In this document: one piece after another, positions 17,014 to 42,379 of the stretch
Position numbering within the stretch: the first letter of the stretch is position 1
Layout: each line of letters begins with the position of its first letter
DNA from: Enterococcaceae bacterium
Lineage (GTDB): Bacteria; Bacillota; Bacilli; Lactobacillales; Enterococcaceae
NCBI GenBank assembly: GCA_022649665.1
Contig: JALCOL010000001.1
Span: forward strand, 124,001-188,000
Reading direction: 5' to 3'
DNA length: 64,000 nt
Notes under the pieces: generated by a model
What the model was told of the DNA's origin: nothing
The model's input: only the letters and a program-made list of their open reading frames with translations
Database searches by the model: none
Made by a program: the position numbers and the translations under genes

Positions 17014-17041
17014 TTGCGCACGCGCGAATTTCTTGTATAAT
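17014..17041 (+). promoter_or_regulatory. Promoter of the cobalamin-controlled ECF operon
   Basis: A perfect TATAAT at 17036-17041 with a poor -35 (TTGCGC, 17014-17019, 16 bp spacer). The transcript would start near 17048, right where the riboswitch begins. Confidence 0.5.
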
Positions 17042-17047
17042 CAGGAC

Positions 17048-17225
17048 AATAGCATACGGAGATTTGATGGATCAGGAATAAGGTGAAAAGCCTTAACAGC
17101 CCCTTTCTACTGTAACGCGGACGAAATTCGAAAAGCTCACTGCTGAAGCGGGAAGAGCGAAGAGTAGGATGAAACGAAGTCAGGATACTGCCCATCACTG
17201 AGCCGATACAACGATATCAGGGTGA
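17048..17225 (+). promoter_or_regulatory. Cobalamin riboswitch aptamer
   Basis: The conserved core elements occur in order: GGTGAAAAGCC near 17082, CACTG near 17138, GGGAAGAGCGAAGAG near 17150, and the B12 box AGTCAGGATACTGCCC at 17178-17193, followed by CATCACTG. This is the adenosylcobalamin-type aptamer arrangement. The expression platform is the terminator at 17282-17317 directly before the ECF genes, so bound cobalamin is expected to stop transcription and cobalamin shortage to turn on uptake. Confidence 0.92.
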
Positions 17226-35331: not shown

Positions 35332-35967
35332 ATGGAGACGATCGATTTTGAAAAATGGCCGCGAAAGGCACACTACCGCTTTTTTGAACAAATGGACAGT
35401 CCGCTGTATTTTATTTGCGCCGCAGTCGATGTGACTGCTTTTTATCAGGAAATCAAAAGACAAGGATTGCCGTTTTACTATAGTACGCTTTATGCCGCAA
35501 CAAAAGCGCTCGACGCCATCGAGGCTTTCCGCTACCGCATCCATCAGCAAAAAATCGTAAAGATCAGCGGATCTATTCCGTCTTTCGTTGATTTGAAAAA
35601 AGGCAGCGAACTTTTTCAAATCACAAATTTGGCGATCGAAGGCCGAGATGCAGCACAATATTGCGCTGCGGCAGCCGAAAAGAGTGCTGCCCAGCTGGAA
35701 CCCTTTCCAAAAGAGGAAGACCGCTGCGATATGATCTTTTTCTCGAGCATTCCCTGGGTCAGCTTTACCAGCTTATCCAACGAACTGACGCTTGATAAAT
35801 ATGATTCCAATCCGCGCATCACTTTCGGCAAATATCAAGCAGACGCTAACGGGCGCTTAATGATGCCAGTGTCGCTCCAAGTCAACCACATGTTGATCGA
35901 CGGCCTCCATATCGGTCAATTTTTCAGCGAATTCCAAGAAATGCTCGACTGTTTTCCAGCTGTTTGA
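35332..35967 (+). CDS. Chloramphenicol acetyltransferase-like protein
   Basis: 211 residues, the CAT monomer size. CAT-fold marks: N-terminal FEKWPRKAHYRFFEQM, DVTAFYQEIKRQG, NPRITFGKYQ and the active-site region VNHMLIDGLHIGQFFSEFQ, where the catalytic His of HHxxxDG is kept although the first His is Asn. Acetyl-CoA-dependent acylation is likely; whether chloramphenicol is a substrate is doubtful, since many chromosomal CAT-like proteins act on other molecules. ATG 35332 follows AAAGGAG. Its last 44 bp overlap the convergent next gene. Confidence 0.82.
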   Translation: METIDFEKWPRKAHYRFFEQMDSPLYFICAAVDVTAFYQEIKRQGLPFYYSTLYAATKALDAIEAFRYRIHQQKIVKISGSIPSFVDLKKGSELFQITNLAIEGRDAAQYCAAAAEKSAAQLEPFPKEEDRCDMIFFSSIPWVSFTSLSNELTLDKYDSNPRITFGKYQADANGRLMMPVSLQVNHMLIDGLHIGQFFSEFQEMLDCFPAV

Positions 35968-37273
35968 GTTTGCGGGTCATCCGTTTGACAGCACGCTGGT
36001 AGCGCCGACGATTTTGCCGCTCTTTTTTGGAATCAAAAGCCGGTGCATGGCAGCCGCGGAGGGCCTGCTTGCGCAAAGCCGGATCTTTTCTTTCAGAGTC
36101 AGCAGCTCCTTTTGGATCATAATGGTAATCAAGGAGCCGGTGAAGATGGTCATTTTGATCGGCATAATTAAAGGAACTTGTATTGATGATCGCTTCCAAG
36201 CGGTTTTCAGCTGGATGCCGAAGATCCATAAAAAGAAATTCACCCGCTTGATTCAAAATAAACTCTGCATGAAAATAATAGACGCGTTTATAATTCCAGC
36301 CGTGCGAAACTGCACGGCCTTCTTTGATTTTATTGTGGAGCCGGGCCGGTTCGCTGGTGCTTGGCGAAAACCCTTGCATTTTGCATTCGACATCGTATCG
36401 CAGGAGACGCTCGCGATCGGTCGCGCACAGCGGATAACTCTGGCGGATGAAAGTAACGAGCGCTTCATCCAGATAGTAGCGCAGCTGATGGGTTTGGCGC
36501 GCGAGCGGGCTTATTTCTTGCAAGCCGGCGGGGAAAGCGCGCTGGACCGCGGCAGAAAAATACCGCAAAAATGGATCGAGCGGACTCAACTGCCGCCAAA
36601 AATGTTTTTCCAGCTGCAGGTCGCCCTTTTCATCAAGTGTTGCACCAAGCAGCTGGAAAACGACCGCGAGCAAGCGGCGGGCATTTTTTTGTGTCCACGG
36701 AAAACGATTCATTTGATTACTGAATATGCGCGTCATGATAGGTGTTCCGACAATCGCAGTTTGCGCCAGCAGATTTTTCAAAGTCGCGCGGCGAGCTGAA
36801 CCGGAAATTTTTTCCAATTTGCGATATAAAAGGTGGATCCAATAAGCGCGGACTGCTTCTTCCCAAGGTCTAAGGGCAGCGGACGCGAGGGCAGCGAAGA
36901 TCAGCGGAAATTCCGCGAGTTCTTCAGTGATTCTTTCCGCGGCTGTCGCGTCAAAAGCATCTTCTTGCAGGAGCGTCAAACTGTCTGCAAGCACGGTGCA
37001 TAAGCGCTCAAGAAGTGTGCCGGCCGCTTCTGCAGCGTTTTTTCGGAGGAGGCTTCTGAAGCTTGCTGCGGGAGCGAGGAGTTCGCGGAAAGCTGCAGCG
37101 GTTGCTGGATTCTCTAGATCCGCGCCTTCAAAAGGCATCCAGCCCGAAAAAGCGTCCGGCCTCTGCGCGGTTTGGATCAGCGGGCTGCTCTCGGCCAGCA
37201 AGAGCATGATCCCGTCGTTTGCCGCATGCAAAAGATCGTGTTTTTTACTTGATAAGCAGTCTGACATTTTCAT
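35924..37273 (-). CDS. Unrecognised cytosolic protein
   Basis: 449 residues without signal peptide or clear membrane segments; family not recognised. The N-terminal half is helical and Ala/Leu-rich. The C-terminal half has more distinctive pieces: NYKRVYYFHAEFILN, FLFMDLRHPAENRLE, FNYADQNDHLHRLLDYHYDP and a basic end (ERQNRRRYQRAVKRMTRKLK). Conserved-looking Tyr, His and Asp could form a ligand site, but I will not assign a function. ATG 37273 follows AAAGGAGG at good spacing. The 3' end overlaps the CAT-like gene tail to tail by 44 bp, with no terminator between. Base use is like its neighbours. Confidence 0.65.
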   Translation of the reverse strand: MKMSDCLSSKKHDLLHAANDGIMLLLAESSPLIQTAQRPDAFSGWMPFEGADLENPATAAAFRELLAPAASFRSLLRKNAAEAAGTLLERLCTVLADSLTLLQEDAFDATAAERITEELAEFPLIFAALASAALRPWEEAVRAYWIHLLYRKLEKISGSARRATLKNLLAQTAIVGTPIMTRIFSNQMNRFPWTQKNARRLLAVVFQLLGATLDEKGDLQLEKHFWRQLSPLDPFLRYFSAAVQRAFPAGLQEISPLARQTHQLRYYLDEALVTFIRQSYPLCATDRERLLRYDVECKMQGFSPSTSEPARLHNKIKEGRAVSHGWNYKRVYYFHAEFILNQAGEFLFMDLRHPAENRLEAIINTSSFNYADQNDHLHRLLDYHYDPKGAADSERKDPALRKQALRGCHAPAFDSKKERQNRRRYQRAVKRMTRKLKQLENSRAFLGIR

Positions 37274-37302
37274 CGCTTTCCTCCTTTCGCGAAGCTGTCC
37301 CG

Positions 37303-37331
37303 TTGCCGGCACGGAAAAATGGTGGTAGAAT
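37303..37331 (+). promoter_or_regulatory. Promoter of the ABC-F leader
   Basis: TTGCCG (37303-37308), 17 bp, TAGAAT (37326-37331). It gives a transcript start near 37338 and a leader of about 190 nt. Confidence 0.6.
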
Positions 37332-37365
37332 ACTTATATTATAAAGAGAAATGAGGGATCTTGCA

Positions 37366-37377
37366 TTGAAAAACTAA
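37366..37377 (+). CDS. Predicted three-codon leader peptide
   Basis: TTG AAA AAC TAA (Met-Lys-Asn) with GAGGG 8 bases upstream. The 13-base ribosome-site block GAAATGAGGGATC is repeated identically before the main gene (37513-37525), so the leader ORF copies the real start region. Three-residue upstream ORFs are known for the Listeria lmo0919 (rli53) leader. An alternative is TTG CAT TGA at 37361, too close to the ribosome site. Confidence 0.45.
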   Translation: MKN

Positions 37378-37478
37378 ATCGACCCGTAAAGCTGCATTCA
37401 GACGAAGACCATCTCGGGGATTCGTGTGCAGATTTTCAGGATTGGTTTGGTTTTCGGCAGGGTCCTTTTTGCGTTCCT

Positions 37479-37509
37479 GCCTATCCTGAAAATAAGATAG
37501 GCTTTTTTT
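37479..37509 (+). terminator. Attenuator terminator
   Basis: GCCTATC / GATAGGC stem, loop CTGAAAATAA, T7, ending 18 bases before the ABC-F start codon. Confidence 0.78.
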
Positions 37510-37527
37510 GACGAAATGAGGGATCGC

Positions 37528-39033
37528 ATGTCAAAAATCGAATGCAAACAAGTTACTTTCGGTTTTGATCTTCAAGGAAAGAATTTATTTGAGCAGGTCT
37601 CGCTGGTGATCGACGATACATGGAAACTCGGTTTGATCGGCCGCAACGGCCGCGGAAAGACGACTTTTCTGCAGCTGCTTTTAGGAACTTATCCTTATCA
37701 AGGAAAGATCATCCATCAAAAGCATTTCCATTACTTTCCGCAGCCGATCGAAACACCAACGCGGCAGGTCAGTGAAATATTGGCGGAATCGGGAGAATTT
37801 GAGCGTTGGGAGATCGAAAAGGAATTCTACGAGCTCGGCCTTGCTCCTGCGCTTTTGGAACGTCCATTTGCGGAATTGTCTGGCGGCGAGCAAACAAAAG
37901 TCCGGCTGGCAGCACTCTTTTTGAACCAAAATGATTTTTTGCTGATCGATGAGCCGACCAATCATCTGGATCAGGCGGGCCGTGCGCTGGTCGCGGAATA
38001 TCTGCGCAAAAAGCGGCAAGGATTTATTGTGGTCAGTCACGACCGGGCTTTTGTGGATGCAGTCGTTGATCATATCTTGAGTTTGGAAAAACAGCAAGTG
38101 ACCTTGATCCAAGGCGACTTCACGCGTTATGAAGCACAAAAGCAGCGGACCGATGCTGCGGAAGCCGCACGCCAAACGAAACTGCAAAGCGAAATCAGCC
38201 GTTTGAAAGAAACCGCGGCACAAAAAAGTGTCTGGTCAGCGGGCCGCGAAAAAGAAAAGCACGGCGATCCGCGCAAAAAAGGAAGCGGTGCGATCAATGA
38301 TAAAGGGTTTATCGGGGCCCGCGCGGCCCGTACGATGAACCGCGCGAAAAGCCTCGAAGCCCGCGCGGCACGCGAGATCAGCGAAAAAGAGCAGCTCTTG
38401 AAAAATCTTGAATACGTCGATTCGCTTTCGATCAAGATGCTGCCAAGCCATCACCGGATCCTGCTTGAAACCGAAGCACTTGAGTTAGCCTATGAGCAGC
38501 CGCTTTTTGCACCGCTCACTTTTCAGCTGAAGCGCGGCGAACAACGGGCGATTTTGGGGGCGAACGGTGCCGGCAAATCATCTTTGCTGAAAGCGCTGCT
38601 GGGAGACTTCAGCGGCACGATCAAAGGTACGGTCGCCCGGTCGGCTTCTGTGAAAATCAGCTGGATCCGGCAAGACTTTGAGAAAAATCACGGCACATTG
38701 CGCGAATTTGCACGCGTGCACCAGTTGGATTATCAAGAATTTTTAAATAATCTGCACAAACTTGGCGTTGAACGCCGCGTATTTGCACAAAGAATCGAAT
38801 CAATGAGCATGGGGCAGCGCAAACGCGTCGAAGTCGCCAAGTCGCTGAGCACGCCCGCTGAACTTTATATTTGGGACGAACCGCTCAATTATTTGGATGT
38901 GTTCAATATCGAGCAGCTGGAGACCTTGATCGCCACCCAAAAGCCGACGCTGCTTTTGGTGGAACATGATCAAGCATTTATTCAGAACATCCACGCGCGG
39001 ACGACCGTACTTGAAAGAGCCGATTCAGTGTAA
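37528..39033 (+). CDS. ABC-F ribosomal protection protein, Lsa/Vga-like
   Basis: Cytosolic protein of 501 residues with two ABC domains and no membrane part. Domain 1: Walker A GRNGRGKTTF, signature LSGGEQTKVRLAAL, DEPTNHLDQ. Linker of about 90 charged residues (the arm that reaches the ribosome). Domain 2: GANGAGKSSLL, MSMGQRKRVEVAKS, DEPLNYLDV. The start SKIECKQVTFGF and overall length match Lsa(A)-type proteins, which dislodge lincosamides, streptogramins A and pleuromutilins from the ribosome. ATG 37528 is chosen behind GAGGG. The attenuator leader supports drug-induced expression. The actual drug spectrum cannot be read from the sequence. Confidence 0.88.
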   Translation: MSKIECKQVTFGFDLQGKNLFEQVSLVIDDTWKLGLIGRNGRGKTTFLQLLLGTYPYQGKIIHQKHFHYFPQPIETPTRQVSEILAESGEFERWEIEKEFYELGLAPALLERPFAELSGGEQTKVRLAALFLNQNDFLLIDEPTNHLDQAGRALVAEYLRKKRQGFIVVSHDRAFVDAVVDHILSLEKQQVTLIQGDFTRYEAQKQRTDAAEAARQTKLQSEISRLKETAAQKSVWSAGREKEKHGDPRKKGSGAINDKGFIGARAARTMNRAKSLEARAAREISEKEQLLKNLEYVDSLSIKMLPSHHRILLETEALELAYEQPLFAPLTFQLKRGEQRAILGANGAGKSSLLKALLGDFSGTIKGTVARSASVKISWIRQDFEKNHGTLREFARVHQLDYQEFLNNLHKLGVERRVFAQRIESMSMGQRKRVEVAKSLSTPAELYIWDEPLNYLDVFNIEQLETLIATQKPTLLLVEHDQAFIQNIHARTTVLERADSV

Positions 39034-39050: not shown

Positions 39051-39095
39051 ACCGAAGCCTGCTTCCTTTTTGAGGAAGAGGCTTCGGTTTTTTTT
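39051..39095 (+). terminator. Terminator after the ABC-F gene
   Basis: ACCGAAGCCT / AGGCTTCGGT stem extended by CTTCC / GGAAG inside, T8. Confidence 0.88.
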
Positions 39096-39121
39096 AGTTT
39101 TCATTTTTGCGAAGATATTCG

Positions 39122-39169: not shown

Positions 39170-39200
39170 GGTAAACGCCATATACAAAGGAGTGATCCAA

Positions 39201-40124
39201 ATGACAGAGACGATCATCAAACTTGAGCATCTCCAAAAGAGTTTTGGGAAAGTCCAAGCATTGAAAGATGTTACGTTTGCTTTGCCGCAAGGGGAAGTAC
39301 TAGGTTTTTTGGGGCCGAACGGTTCTGGCAAGTCGACGACGATCCGGATCTTGCTGGGGATGTTGAAAAAAGACGGCGGAAGCGCGGCGGTCTTCGGTGA
39401 GGACCCGTGGCATGATGACCTTTCGATCCATCCGCGCGTTTCATATATTCCGGGGGATGTGTACCTTTGGCCAAATTTATCAGGCGGCGAGATCATTGAT
39501 CTGCTGCTGCGCCTGAATGATCATGAACACAATGCCAAGACTGATGAATTGATCAAAATTTTTCAGTTCGATCCGAAAAAGAAGGCGCGGACCTATTCAA
39601 AAGGAAATCGGCAGAAAGTCGCTTTGATCGCAGCACTTTCGCAAGACGCGGAGCTGTATATTTTCGATGAGCCGACTGCGGGACTAGATCCTTTAAACGA
39701 GCTGACTTTTCAAAATGAAGTCCTCAAGCTGAAAGCGGCCGGGAAAAGTGTGCTTCTTTCCAGTCACATTCTCTCTGAAGTCGAGCGGATGTGCGACGCG
39801 ATCGTGATCATCCGGGAAGGCGTCGTGATCGAAAACGGCAATCTAGCGCAGCTGCAGCATTTATCGCGGCTTCATATCAAAGTACAAACGAAAAAATCAC
39901 TGGAAGAAGTCGCAAAGCTGAAAGGGATCCATGAGATCCATTTTGGCGATGACGCAAAAATGATCGCGGATTTCGATGTCGACCGTGCGGAAATGGGCGC
40001 CGTGATGGATGCACTGGCAGCGCGTGAAATCGTTGATTTGACATCGACGCCGCCAACACTGGAAGACCTTTTCATGCACTATTATGCGGAGCATCAAGGG
40101 AGTGATCAGCATGACACGCAATGA
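39201..40124 (+). CDS. ABC exporter ATPase
   Basis: 307 residues: Walker A GPNGSGKSTT near 40, RTYSKGNRQKVALIAAL as signature, YIFDEPTAGLDP as Walker B, SSHILSEVERM as switch region, and a C-terminal tail of about 80 residues. Drug-exporter (DrrA/CcmA-like) type. ATG 39201 follows AAAGGAGTGA. It overlaps the permease start by 14 bp. With the permease and the TetR regulator it forms a three-gene operon. Confidence 0.88.
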   Translation: MTETIIKLEHLQKSFGKVQALKDVTFALPQGEVLGFLGPNGSGKSTTIRILLGMLKKDGGSAAVFGEDPWHDDLSIHPRVSYIPGDVYLWPNLSGGEIIDLLLRLNDHEHNAKTDELIKIFQFDPKKKARTYSKGNRQKVALIAALSQDAELYIFDEPTAGLDPLNELTFQNEVLKLKAAGKSVLLSSHILSEVERMCDAIVIIREGVVIENGNLAQLQHLSRLHIKVQTKKSLEEVAKLKGIHEIHFGDDAKMIADFDVDRAEMGAVMDALAAREIVDLTSTPPTLEDLFMHYYAEHQGSDQHDTQ

Positions 40125-41724
40125 TCATCACTTCGGCTATTTATTAAAAGCGAATCTTAAACAAAACTTGCGCTTTATTTTGATTTGGATGCTGGTCTTG
40201 GTCCTGATGATCGTCAGCGGGGCTGTCAAGTTTCAAGCGTTGTTCGAATCCGATGCCAAAGGAGTCGCAAAAATGATCGCAATGCTGAAAACACCGGGAA
40301 TGGCGGGAGTTTTCGGGGCACTGCCAAGTGCGGGAACGGAGAGCCAAGCGACAGTTTTCGCGGGAGTCATGATCGTTTTTATGGTGATCTTAGGCGCGCT
40401 TTTCATGATTCCGCTGGCAATCAACAACACACGCGGCCAGGAAGAAGACGGTCTTTTGGAAATGGTCCGCGCGCGCAATGTCGGGCGGACAGCTTCACTC
40501 ACGGCAACGATCGTCGAGCTGGTTGGTTTGAACGTGCTCCTTGGACTTTTATATTTCATCGGACTGAGTGCGGCGCATCTCAAAGGTGCTGATCTCGCCG
40601 GCAATCTGCTTTTCTGTTTGGATCTGGCGGTTGCCAATTTGATGTTTGCGGCATTGGCGCTTTTGATCGCACAGCTCGCCAGTTCAACGCGCAGTGCAAC
40701 GATGCTGACGTATGCGATCGTCGCCGTGATATATTTGGTGCGTGTCGTGACAGACATCAAAGACCCCACGCTGACTTGGCTTTCGCCGATGGGCTGGGCG
40801 CAAAAAACCGATGCGTATACCACGAATAATTTTTGGCCGGTCATTTTGATGTTGGCGGCGGCAAGTCTTCTGGCCGGCGCAGCCGCCGTGATCAGCAAAA
40901 ATCGTGATCTGGGTGCCGGGATTCTTCCTGAACGGAGCGGCAGAGCGCGCGCTTCTGAGTGGTTGCGATCGGTGCCGGCGTTATTGATCCGGACGGAACG
41001 CAATGCGATCGCTGCATGGCTGATCGGCAGCGTACTTTTCGGTGCAGTCTTCGGGAGCGTGATCGGCAATGCCGGGGATGTGCTCAAAGAAAATCCGGTT
41101 TATCGCAAGATGCTGAGTATCGAGCAGCTCAATGTCGCTGACCGGACGATGACGCTTTCCTTTATGAATATGTTTATCCTGATTTTTATTACGCTGGCGA
41201 TCGTGGCGGGCGCGCAGCTGATTTTTCGTTTGCGGCACGATGATGATCACGGATATCTCGACATCATCCACGCGGAAAAAGCGAGTCGCATGAAAATCGC
41301 TGCCAGCTATTTCGGGATCGGGCTGCTCTTTGCGATCATCGTCTATGCACTCAGTGTCTTTGTCGTCTTTTTTATCGGCAACGCGACCCTTAAAACACCG
41401 CTTGAGCTGAAATATTTGCTGCGGATGATGGCGGCTGGAATTCCGGCAGTGACGGCATTTCTCGGTTTGGCGATTCTTTTGATCGGCGCCGTACCGCGCG
41501 TCGCCAGTCTTTTTTGGATCTATATGGGAAGCGGCTTGATCGTTCAGCTTTTCGGGGCGCTCTTAAGTTTGCCGAAACATGCCGGAGCGTTCACACCGTT
41601 CGGCTGGCTGAATGATACCCCGCTCCATGCGCCGCAAACTCTGGCGATCTGGCTGATGATGATCGCGACGATTCTCTTAGTCGCCGGCGGGATGCTGGGA
41701 TATAAACGGCGGGATCTGGAGTGA
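40111..41724 (+). CDS. ABC exporter permease, two-module type
   Basis: 537 residues with two sets of about six membrane helices (about 25-265 and 315-530), separated by a cytoplasmic loop. This duplicated ABC-2 layout resembles the polyketide-antibiotic exporter (tetronasin-resistance TnrB3) group. Short motifs: TRGQEEDGLLEMVRARNVGR in the first half and RHDDDHGYLDIIHAEKASR at the matching place in the second half show the internal duplication. ATG 40111 behind GGGAGTGA. Substrate unknown. Confidence 0.84.
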   Translation: MTRNDHHFGYLLKANLKQNLRFILIWMLVLVLMIVSGAVKFQALFESDAKGVAKMIAMLKTPGMAGVFGALPSAGTESQATVFAGVMIVFMVILGALFMIPLAINNTRGQEEDGLLEMVRARNVGRTASLTATIVELVGLNVLLGLLYFIGLSAAHLKGADLAGNLLFCLDLAVANLMFAALALLIAQLASSTRSATMLTYAIVAVIYLVRVVTDIKDPTLTWLSPMGWAQKTDAYTTNNFWPVILMLAAASLLAGAAAVISKNRDLGAGILPERSGRARASEWLRSVPALLIRTERNAIAAWLIGSVLFGAVFGSVIGNAGDVLKENPVYRKMLSIEQLNVADRTMTLSFMNMFILIFITLAIVAGAQLIFRLRHDDDHGYLDIIHAEKASRMKIAASYFGIGLLFAIIVYALSVFVVFFIGNATLKTPLELKYLLRMMAAGIPAVTAFLGLAILLIGAVPRVASLFWIYMGSGLIVQLFGALLSLPKHAGAFTPFGWLNDTPLHAPQTLAIWLMMIATILLVAGGMLGYKRRDLE

Positions 41725-41731
41725 GGAGCAA

Positions 41732-42379
41732 ATGAAAAATATCGTGAGCGATCCGCAAAAAGTCGCGCGTATTCTTCGTGCGGCAATGAATATTTTCGGC
41801 GAGTCCGGCTACGCGGACAGCAGCACCAATCGAATCGCCCAGGAAGCCGAAGTTTCCAAGGGCCTGATCTTTCACTATTTCGGCAGCAAGAGCGAACTGT
41901 ATATCGACACCTATCACGATACGTATACCCGGATCTATGCAGCGATGGACCGGCGGATCTGGACCGATGCAGAAGATCTGGTAAAAATGGTGACCCAAGC
42001 TACCCGCTATAAGATCAGTTTGCAGCTGGCTTATCCGGCAGAGTTCCGTTTTTTCCTGCAAGCATACCGTGATCTTCCCCATCTGCCTGAGCCGCTGCGT
42101 GAAAAAATGCAGCAGGAATTGAAGCAGGTTAATGTGCTCGGGGAAGAGATCATCAGTGAAACGATCGAAAAGATGCCGCTGCGCGCCGGGGTCGAGCGCA
42201 AAAATGTGATTTTCCTTGTTTCGGCAGTGGTCGCCAGCGAGACTGCAAAAGTTGCAGACTTGCTGGCGGCAGGCGGCAAGTATCAGCGCATCGAAGACTT
42301 TCAGCCGATCATCGACAGTATCCGCGCGCAGCTGGATATCATCGAGCACGGCTTTGCTCCGAAAGACGTCGAATCGTAA
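41732..42379 (+). CDS. TetR/AcrR-family regulator
   Basis: 215 residues. The N-terminal helix-turn-helix is textbook (ARILRAAMNIFGESGYADSS, then AEVSKGLIFHYFGSKSELY); the rest is a helical ligand-binding domain. AGGAG precedes ATG 41732, 7 bp after the permease. As third gene of the exporter operon it probably represses it through the 16-bp palindrome at 39122-39137, released by the exporter's substrate. Confidence 0.9.
   Translation: MKNIVSDPQKVARILRAAMNIFGESGYADSSTNRIAQEAEVSKGLIFHYFGSKSELYIDTYHDTYTRIYAAMDRRIWTDAEDLVKMVTQATRYKISLQLAYPAEFRFFLQAYRDLPHLPEPLREKMQQELKQVNVLGEEIISETIEKMPLRAGVERKNVIFLVSAVVASETAKVADLLAAGGKYQRIEDFQPIIDSIRAQLDIIEHGFAPKDVES

Follow-up and report, generated by a model that had tools for sequence, protein, structure and literature searches.

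A probable ribosome-mediated transcription attenuator with three competing structures upstream of an Lsa-like ABC-F gene in the Enterococcaceae

The closest described systems are the leaders of three ABC-F genes. In Listeria monocytogenes, rli53 precedes the ARE ABC-F gene lmo0919 (vgaL). It contains an anti-antiterminator (AAT)/antiterminator that overlaps a three-amino-acid ORF, and its premature termination was found by experiment to be relieved by lincomycin (Dar et al. 2016, as reported in PMC8079631). The vmlR leader of Bacillus subtilis likewise has a tripeptide upstream ORF (uORF; MIN) inside an AAT, an antiterminator, and an intrinsic terminator (PMC9226507). The vmlR switch responds to lincosamides and pleuromutilins, and its logic was shown by experiment; its authors describe it as analogous to, and probably not homologous with, an earlier system (PMC9226507). 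The cplR leader of Clostridioides difficile likewise has a three-codon uORF (MR[I/M]), induced and repressed conformations, and a terminator before its ABC-F gene (PMC10201436). Lincosamides, pleuromutilins, and streptogramins A act at an early stage of translation (PMC9226507, PMC10201436).

The locus reported here lies in a 64,000-nt stretch of contig JALCOL010000001.1 from an Enterococcaceae bacterium (the window). The gene at 37528-39033 (+) encodes a 501-aa ABC-F ribosome-protection protein that scores 467.5 bits against NCBIfam ribo_prot_ABC_F (cut-off, 380). The best of 191 models is ABCF_Lsa_all (NCBIfam NF000167). The score is 646 bits and the curated cut-off of 750 is not reached, so the protein is called Lsa-like and is not filed as Lsa. 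Its closest solved structure is Lsa(A) (PDB 7nhk), to which it is 56% identical. By its sequence, the controlled gene is an antibiotic-resistance ABC-F gene. It appears to be monocistronic, since a terminator (ACCGAAGCC ... GGCTTCGGT and a T-run; sequence reading) lies directly past it at 39051-39096 (+).

The surrounding genes were also read. A DUF3114 protein is encoded at 35924-37312 (-), divergent from the leader. The start listed for it overlaps the promoter region; translation more likely begins at an ATG near 37274 that follows a good ribosome site. A chloramphenicol acetyltransferase-like protein (PF00302, 100 bits) is encoded at 35335-35967 (+), two genes from the ABC-F gene. Downstream, 39192-41724 (+) encodes an ABC transporter ATPase and a 546-aa protein without a Pfam or NCBIfam match that is probably its permease. 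These genes are followed by a TetR-type regulator at 41732-42379. The sole Rfam match within the window is a cobalamin riboswitch (RF00174, 64.9 bits) at 17033-17208 (+).

The leader of the ABC-F gene occupies 37303-37528. It begins with a predicted promoter at 37303-37331 (+), read from the sequence as TTGCCG-17-TAGAAT; a TG precedes the second hexamer. The uORF and its ribosome site start about 20-35 nt past the predicted promoter. The ribosome-binding site of the uORF, GAGGGATC, is at 37353-37360 (+) and is near-invariant among the leaders compared. The uORF itself, TTG AAA AAC TAA (Met-Lys-Asn), is at 37366-37377 (+) and has a UUG start; it was assigned from the sequence and from comparison of leaders. 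The antiterminator is an inverted repeat. Its 5' arm, ATTTTCAGGATTGG, is at 37432-37445 (+), and its 3' arm, CCTATCCTGAAAAT, is at 37480-37493 (+). The arms ATTTTCAGGAT (37432) and ATCCTGAAAAT (37483) form one 14-nt inverted repeat that is 93% complementary, with an inner pairing of GGCAGG at 37456-37461 and CCTGCC at 37476-37481. The 3' arm overlaps the 5' arm of a predicted intrinsic terminator, GCCTATC-N10-GATAGGC-T7, at 37479-37509 (+). The terminator hairpin has a predicted energy of -8.1 kcal/mol, and its arms are at 37479-37485 and 37496-37502.

A first-pass annotation of this DNA had listed the promoter, the ribosome site, the uORF, and two mutually exclusive hairpins, one made by the antiterminator arms with GGCAGG/CCTGCC and the other by GCCTATC/GATAGGC with T7. 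All of these lie where it placed them, base for base. It had also stressed an exact duplication of the ribosome-site block before the uORF and before the main gene. The duplication is present: GAAATGAGGGATC is found as exact 13-nt copies at 37348-37360 and 37513-37525, and a repeat search placed the main-gene ribosome-binding site, also GAGGGATC, within the second copy at 37518-37525 (+). The stress laid on it is unsupported. The exact duplication is private to this genome; words shared in 26 other leaders reach 4-7 nt at most. As a general feature, a second functional sensor copy was therefore rejected.

The minimum-energy fold of the leader is neither of these hairpins. Instead, 37353-37385 pairs with 37439-37468 in a long helix (about 33 pairs) that is capped at its tip by a smaller hairpin (37388-37436); the terminator comes next. 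This helix holds the uORF. It is the strongest structure of the leader, and the first-pass annotation missed it. Its 5' strand (37353-37385, +) consists of the ribosome site, which forms the outer part, the uORF, and the bases after it; the strand was assigned from the unconstrained fold and from co-variation with the 3' strand. The 3' strand (37439-37468, +), assigned from the fold and the comparison of leaders, runs into a U-run at 37466-37470. The tip hairpin (37388-37436, +; GCTGCATTCAGAC ... GTGTGCAG) was assigned from the fold and contains the most conserved sequence of the element. The long helix contains the 5' arm of the antiterminator, which is buried once the helix forms. The helix is therefore read as an AAT that would link translation of the uORF to the fate of transcription. 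The leader RNA folds at -60.5 kcal/mol; shuffled sequences fold at -41.8 +/- 3.9 kcal/mol (z = -4.8; 0/200 shuffles as good). From this difference and the conservation of the element in other genera, the structure exceeds chance.

Relatives of the leader were collected by a genome search, because a protein scan of the genome contigs returned distant relatives only. A covariance model (R1) was built from 22 leaders. It detected the element in 86 of 105 Enterococcaceae genomes, representing 14 of 17 genera. Outside the Enterococcaceae, it detected the element in some genomes from four further Lactobacillales families. There was no match to the model outside the Lactobacillales in 399 sampled Bacilli genomes, a sample from which Listeria may be absent. 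The relatives' upstream regions share GAGGGATC, a two- or three-codon UUG uORF, GCTGCATTCAGAC, GTGTGCAGATTTTCAGGATTGG, and GGGTCTTTTT. A promoter-like pair (at least 9/12) within 60 nt upstream was found for 52 of 79 distinct leaders and for 17% of shuffled ones. The element is found almost only before lsa-type ABC-F genes. Among the Enterococcaceae genomes, 85 have both the gene and the element, 13 have neither, 6 have the gene only, and 1, where the contig ends, has only the element. Leaders of the same architecture and diverged sequence precede the gene in at least two of those six (L011 and L020, genus g7).

Several other leaders were encountered. Two leaders of unrelated sequence in family f9 (L026 and L027) have the UUG uORF TTG CGT TTT TAA; when L026 was folded, it had the same layout of AAT plus U-run and antiterminator/terminator. 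Second lsa-type paralogs, including those in one genus's larger genomes, are found behind a related but diverged leader (L073-L081 and L083; genera g10, g11, and g14). These paralog leaders have ATG-started uORFs of six or seven codons (MRNFTK, MFYSSMK, MRTFTN, and others). Two leaders in family f8, genus g45 (L093 and L100), are orphans without an ABC-F gene. Movement of the element to other genes was considered for these two and rejected, as their non-ABC-F neighborhoods look like sites of ABC-F loss; L093 has a stub, ATGTCGAATATTTAA, that is similar to the beginning of the lost gene. No copy of the element precedes the mobile lsa(E) gene (L038).

The leader DNA had no match when compared with plasmids. 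It had no Rfam match at gathering scores. For five related leaders searched at E values up to 1, no match fell on the leader, and the three matches listed lie outside it. A literature search found no description of the element, and the lsa leader may have been noticed earlier in Dar et al. 2016. No mention of this leader was found in the literature on E. faecalis transcript maps and premature terminators.

The UUG start is present in nearly all main-class leaders. An in-frame stop follows two or three codons on, and a strong ribosome site precedes the start. Codons 2 and 3 vary among Lys-Asn, Lys-Ile, Lys-Lys, Arg-Ile, Asn-Asn, Ile-Asn, and others. The stop is TAA or TGA (TGA in L114 and L118). 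Two leaders (L096 and L105) encode MRI, as in the cplR uORF, MR[I/M]. The weight that the first-pass annotation had put on the peptide Met-Lys-Asn is therefore not borne out, since the peptide varies among leaders. The start and the stop are kept while the residues drift, which fits a sensor of stalling at the first step and not of the peptide. This suggests that the sensor reads stalling at initiation rather than peptide sequence, although the argument has limits, because these bases also form the AAT, so that conservation of the AAT and conservation of the uORF are confounded. The uORF of genus g10 may instead start at an in-frame ATG two codons earlier than the UUG, giving MPLKN. A longer in-frame reading from an ATG at 37351 in the present leader (MRDLALKN) was rejected as a real uORF; this ATG is not conserved and is GTG, ACG, AAG, or GCG in many relatives.

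The pairing of the AAT strands was examined by swapping strands between leaders. A real AAT predicts that the 5' strand of a leader pairs more stably with the 3' strand of the same leader than with 3' strands from other leaders. Cognate strands paired at -34.2 kcal/mol and swapped strands at -24.1 kcal/mol among 21 mostly genus-level representatives (0/100,000 permutations as good). Among 79 distinct leaders, the values were -32.7 and -23.2 kcal/mol (0/20,000 permutations). Changes on both sides of a pair were counted in 23 of 41 columns of the AAT 5' strand; pairs in this count were predicted sequence by sequence, which leans toward pairing, and the strand-swap test is free of that bias. An RNAalifold consensus on a MAFFT alignment recovered only part of the AAT because loop lengths differ, with 6 of 20 pairs changed on both sides, and the strand-swap test was used instead. 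The tip hairpin (37388-37436; GCTGCATTCAGAC, GTGTGCAGATTTTCAGG) is conserved beyond the needs of pairing alone.

The antiterminator arms co-vary as well. Cognate arms paired at -17.0 kcal/mol and swapped arms at -13.0 kcal/mol (0/20,000 permutations), and the pairing is kept in 26 of the 27 leaders examined. In most genera, the terminator shares bases with the 3' arm. A terminator is lacking, or its overlap with the antiterminator is unclear, in a probable E. faecalis leader (L010), in genera g3, g5, and g8, and in family f9. Where the distal terminator is poor, the U-run is still kept.

Folding of 26 representative leaders gave a switch that depends on the uORF. The free RNA formed the AAT (14-37 pairs) and no antiterminator in 26/26. 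When transcripts ended at the antiterminator, the antiterminator formed in 1/26 unmasked and in 26/26 with a 30-nt mask over the ribosome site and uORF (offsets of +2 to +14 from the element start). Masks over the tip hairpin gave the antiterminator in few or none of the 26. With the terminator included, the masked fold switched to the antiterminator in 17-19 of 26, and about a third stayed unswitched at equilibrium; this fraction is expected at equilibrium and understates co-transcriptional folding, where the antiterminator forms first.

We consider it highly probable that the leader is a drug-inducible, ribosome-mediated transcription attenuator of the Lsa-type ABC-F gene and that it has three competing structures. 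Without drug, a ribosome would translate the three-codon UUG uORF and then leave. The uORF and its ribosome site would then pair with the strand 60-90 nt downstream to form the AAT helix. The AAT would bury the antiterminator 5' arm, the terminator at 37479-37509 would fold, and transcription would halt just before the gene. If a drug stalled the ribosome as translation begins, the ribosome would stay parked over the 5' strand of the AAT. Since the uORF and ribosome site pair with the antiterminator strand, a parked ribosome would free that strand. The freed arm, ATTTTCAGGAT, would pair with ATCCTGAAAAT once that is made, the terminator would not form, and the ABC-F gene would be transcribed. 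By analogy with vmlR and lmo0919, the candidate drugs are lincosamides, streptogramins A, and pleuromutilins. We infer uORF translation, termination, stalling, and induction.

The first-pass annotation had already proposed that the lsa-like ABC-F gene is preceded by an attenuator with a three-codon uORF, and had named a covariation search of homologous leaders as a check. The proposal survived comparative tests able to fail it: the antiterminator pairing is kept among homologous leaders, and the overlap with the terminator is kept in most genera. Its suggested likeness to rli53/lmo0919 also holds, as the leader fits the logic published for rli53/lmo0919 and for vmlR (PMC8079631; PMC9226507). 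By sequence and predicted fold, the leader has the uORF, the exclusive antiterminator and terminator, and the uORF-containing AAT of rli53/vmlR-type attenuators.

There are also differences from each system. Rli53 shares with this leader a conserved AAT/antiterminator that overlaps a short uORF before an ARE ABC-F gene (PMC8079631), but the rli53 gene is of type ARE1 (VgaL) and the gene type here is ARE3 (Lsa) (PMC10201436). In vmlR, the ribosome site of the uORF is single-stranded and lies before the hairpin, whereas here the helix encloses the whole site and the uORF, which has a UUG start; vmlR also has a NusG pause and a hairpin hiding the vmlR ribosome site (PMC9226507). The cplR terminator hairpin contains the main ribosome site, and its taxon and sequence differ from those of this element (PMC10201436). 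The element would work like rli53 and vmlR, a likeness of logic that need not reflect common descent.

The U-run at the end of the AAT bears on how many terminators the leader has. A run of at least five Us follows the AAT in 64 of 67 leaders. Its partners are purines of the ribosome site, and most of these pairs are G-U. A C in their place would pair more strongly, so something other than pairing may preserve the Us, and a second role in pausing or termination is suggested. The AAT hairpin with its U-run could itself terminate or pause transcription first, with the distal hairpin as a second terminator; a stalled ribosome would remove both. Retention of the U-run where the distal terminator is poor is in keeping with this possibility. 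The stem, however, is long and interrupted, unlike a typical terminator, and the Us could merely keep the hold on the ribosome site weak. The downstream antiterminator arm is also conserved, which a single early terminator would not need. We regard this reading as tentative and somewhat doubtful. It refines the attenuator explanation rather than opposing it.

Control could instead be mainly translational, with the element governing access to the main ribosome site and termination secondary, as is partly the case in cplR. That system is regulated at both levels (PMC10201436), vmlR has the hairpin over its ribosome site (PMC9226507), and some of the present leaders are without a clear terminator. 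The main ribosome site is more open under the uORF mask in four leaders (L096, L103, L007, and L005), but the average opening over 26 leaders is small (unpaired 0.21 free and 0.30 masked) and the site has no consistent partner. A conserved GUGUACC after the U-run was considered as a sequence hiding the main site and was rejected, as it gave no consistent signal. In the present leader, the T7 terminator is clear and the main site is nearly unchanged (0.56 free and 0.59 masked). Mainly translational control is accordingly an improbable account, though an added layer of control at translation may be present. A protein- or ligand-binding leader (riboswitch) with an incidental short ORF would explain why the tip hairpin, GCTGCATTCAGAC ... 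GTGTGCAG, is conserved beyond pairing needs, but it is very hard to credit given a UUG and nearby in-frame stop kept behind a strong ribosome site while amino acids and stop codon change, an element tied to one ribosome-protection gene, and the lack of an Rfam match.

The attenuator reading also bears on lsa(A), the gene for the intrinsic clindamycin and streptogramin A resistance of E. faecalis. One genome (G002, leader L010) encodes an LsaA that is 98.4% identical to the PDB 7nhk protein and is, judged by this protein, almost certainly E. faecalis. Its element carries the uORF TTG AAA ATT TAA (Met-Lys-Ile) at -183 from the lsa start. The predicted promoter of this leader has its -35 box at -247, and ATGGCGGGGAACTAG stands before it, at -325. 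For E. faecalis LsaA, the sole published uORF that was found is the uORF4u consensus MAGN (PMC10201436), and we infer that the MAGN sequence in L010 is this published uORF. With the MAGN site placed ahead of the predicted promoter, the better sensor candidate is the conserved UUG uORF (Met-Lys-Ile). The published start of the lsa(A) sensor thus appears to be misplaced, outside the transcript. The uORF4u program handles alternative starts as an option (PMC10219788), and the UUG uORF may have been missed earlier for this reason.

The attenuation logic itself was already known. Three things go beyond the first-pass annotation: the AAT, how widely the element is conserved, and a likely correction to the uORF of lsa(A). 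The element would make a new Rfam family. A broader scenario can be sketched as a speculation, and we think it rather improbable. One ancestral attenuator would predate the split of several Lactobacillales families and would have kept a UUG sensor, two or three codons long, with a peptide of little importance. It would have a double terminator (the AAT with its U-run and then the distal hairpin), both relieved by stalling at initiation, and would control intrinsic lsa/eat-type resistance throughout Enterococcus. A sensor of initiation stalling with a free peptide would contrast with macrolide sensors. The element conserved in about four fifths of the Enterococcaceae genomes represents a different candidate lsa sensor that is directly testable. 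Its distribution suggests that inducible, and not constitutive, ABC-F resistance is ancestral in the enterococci.
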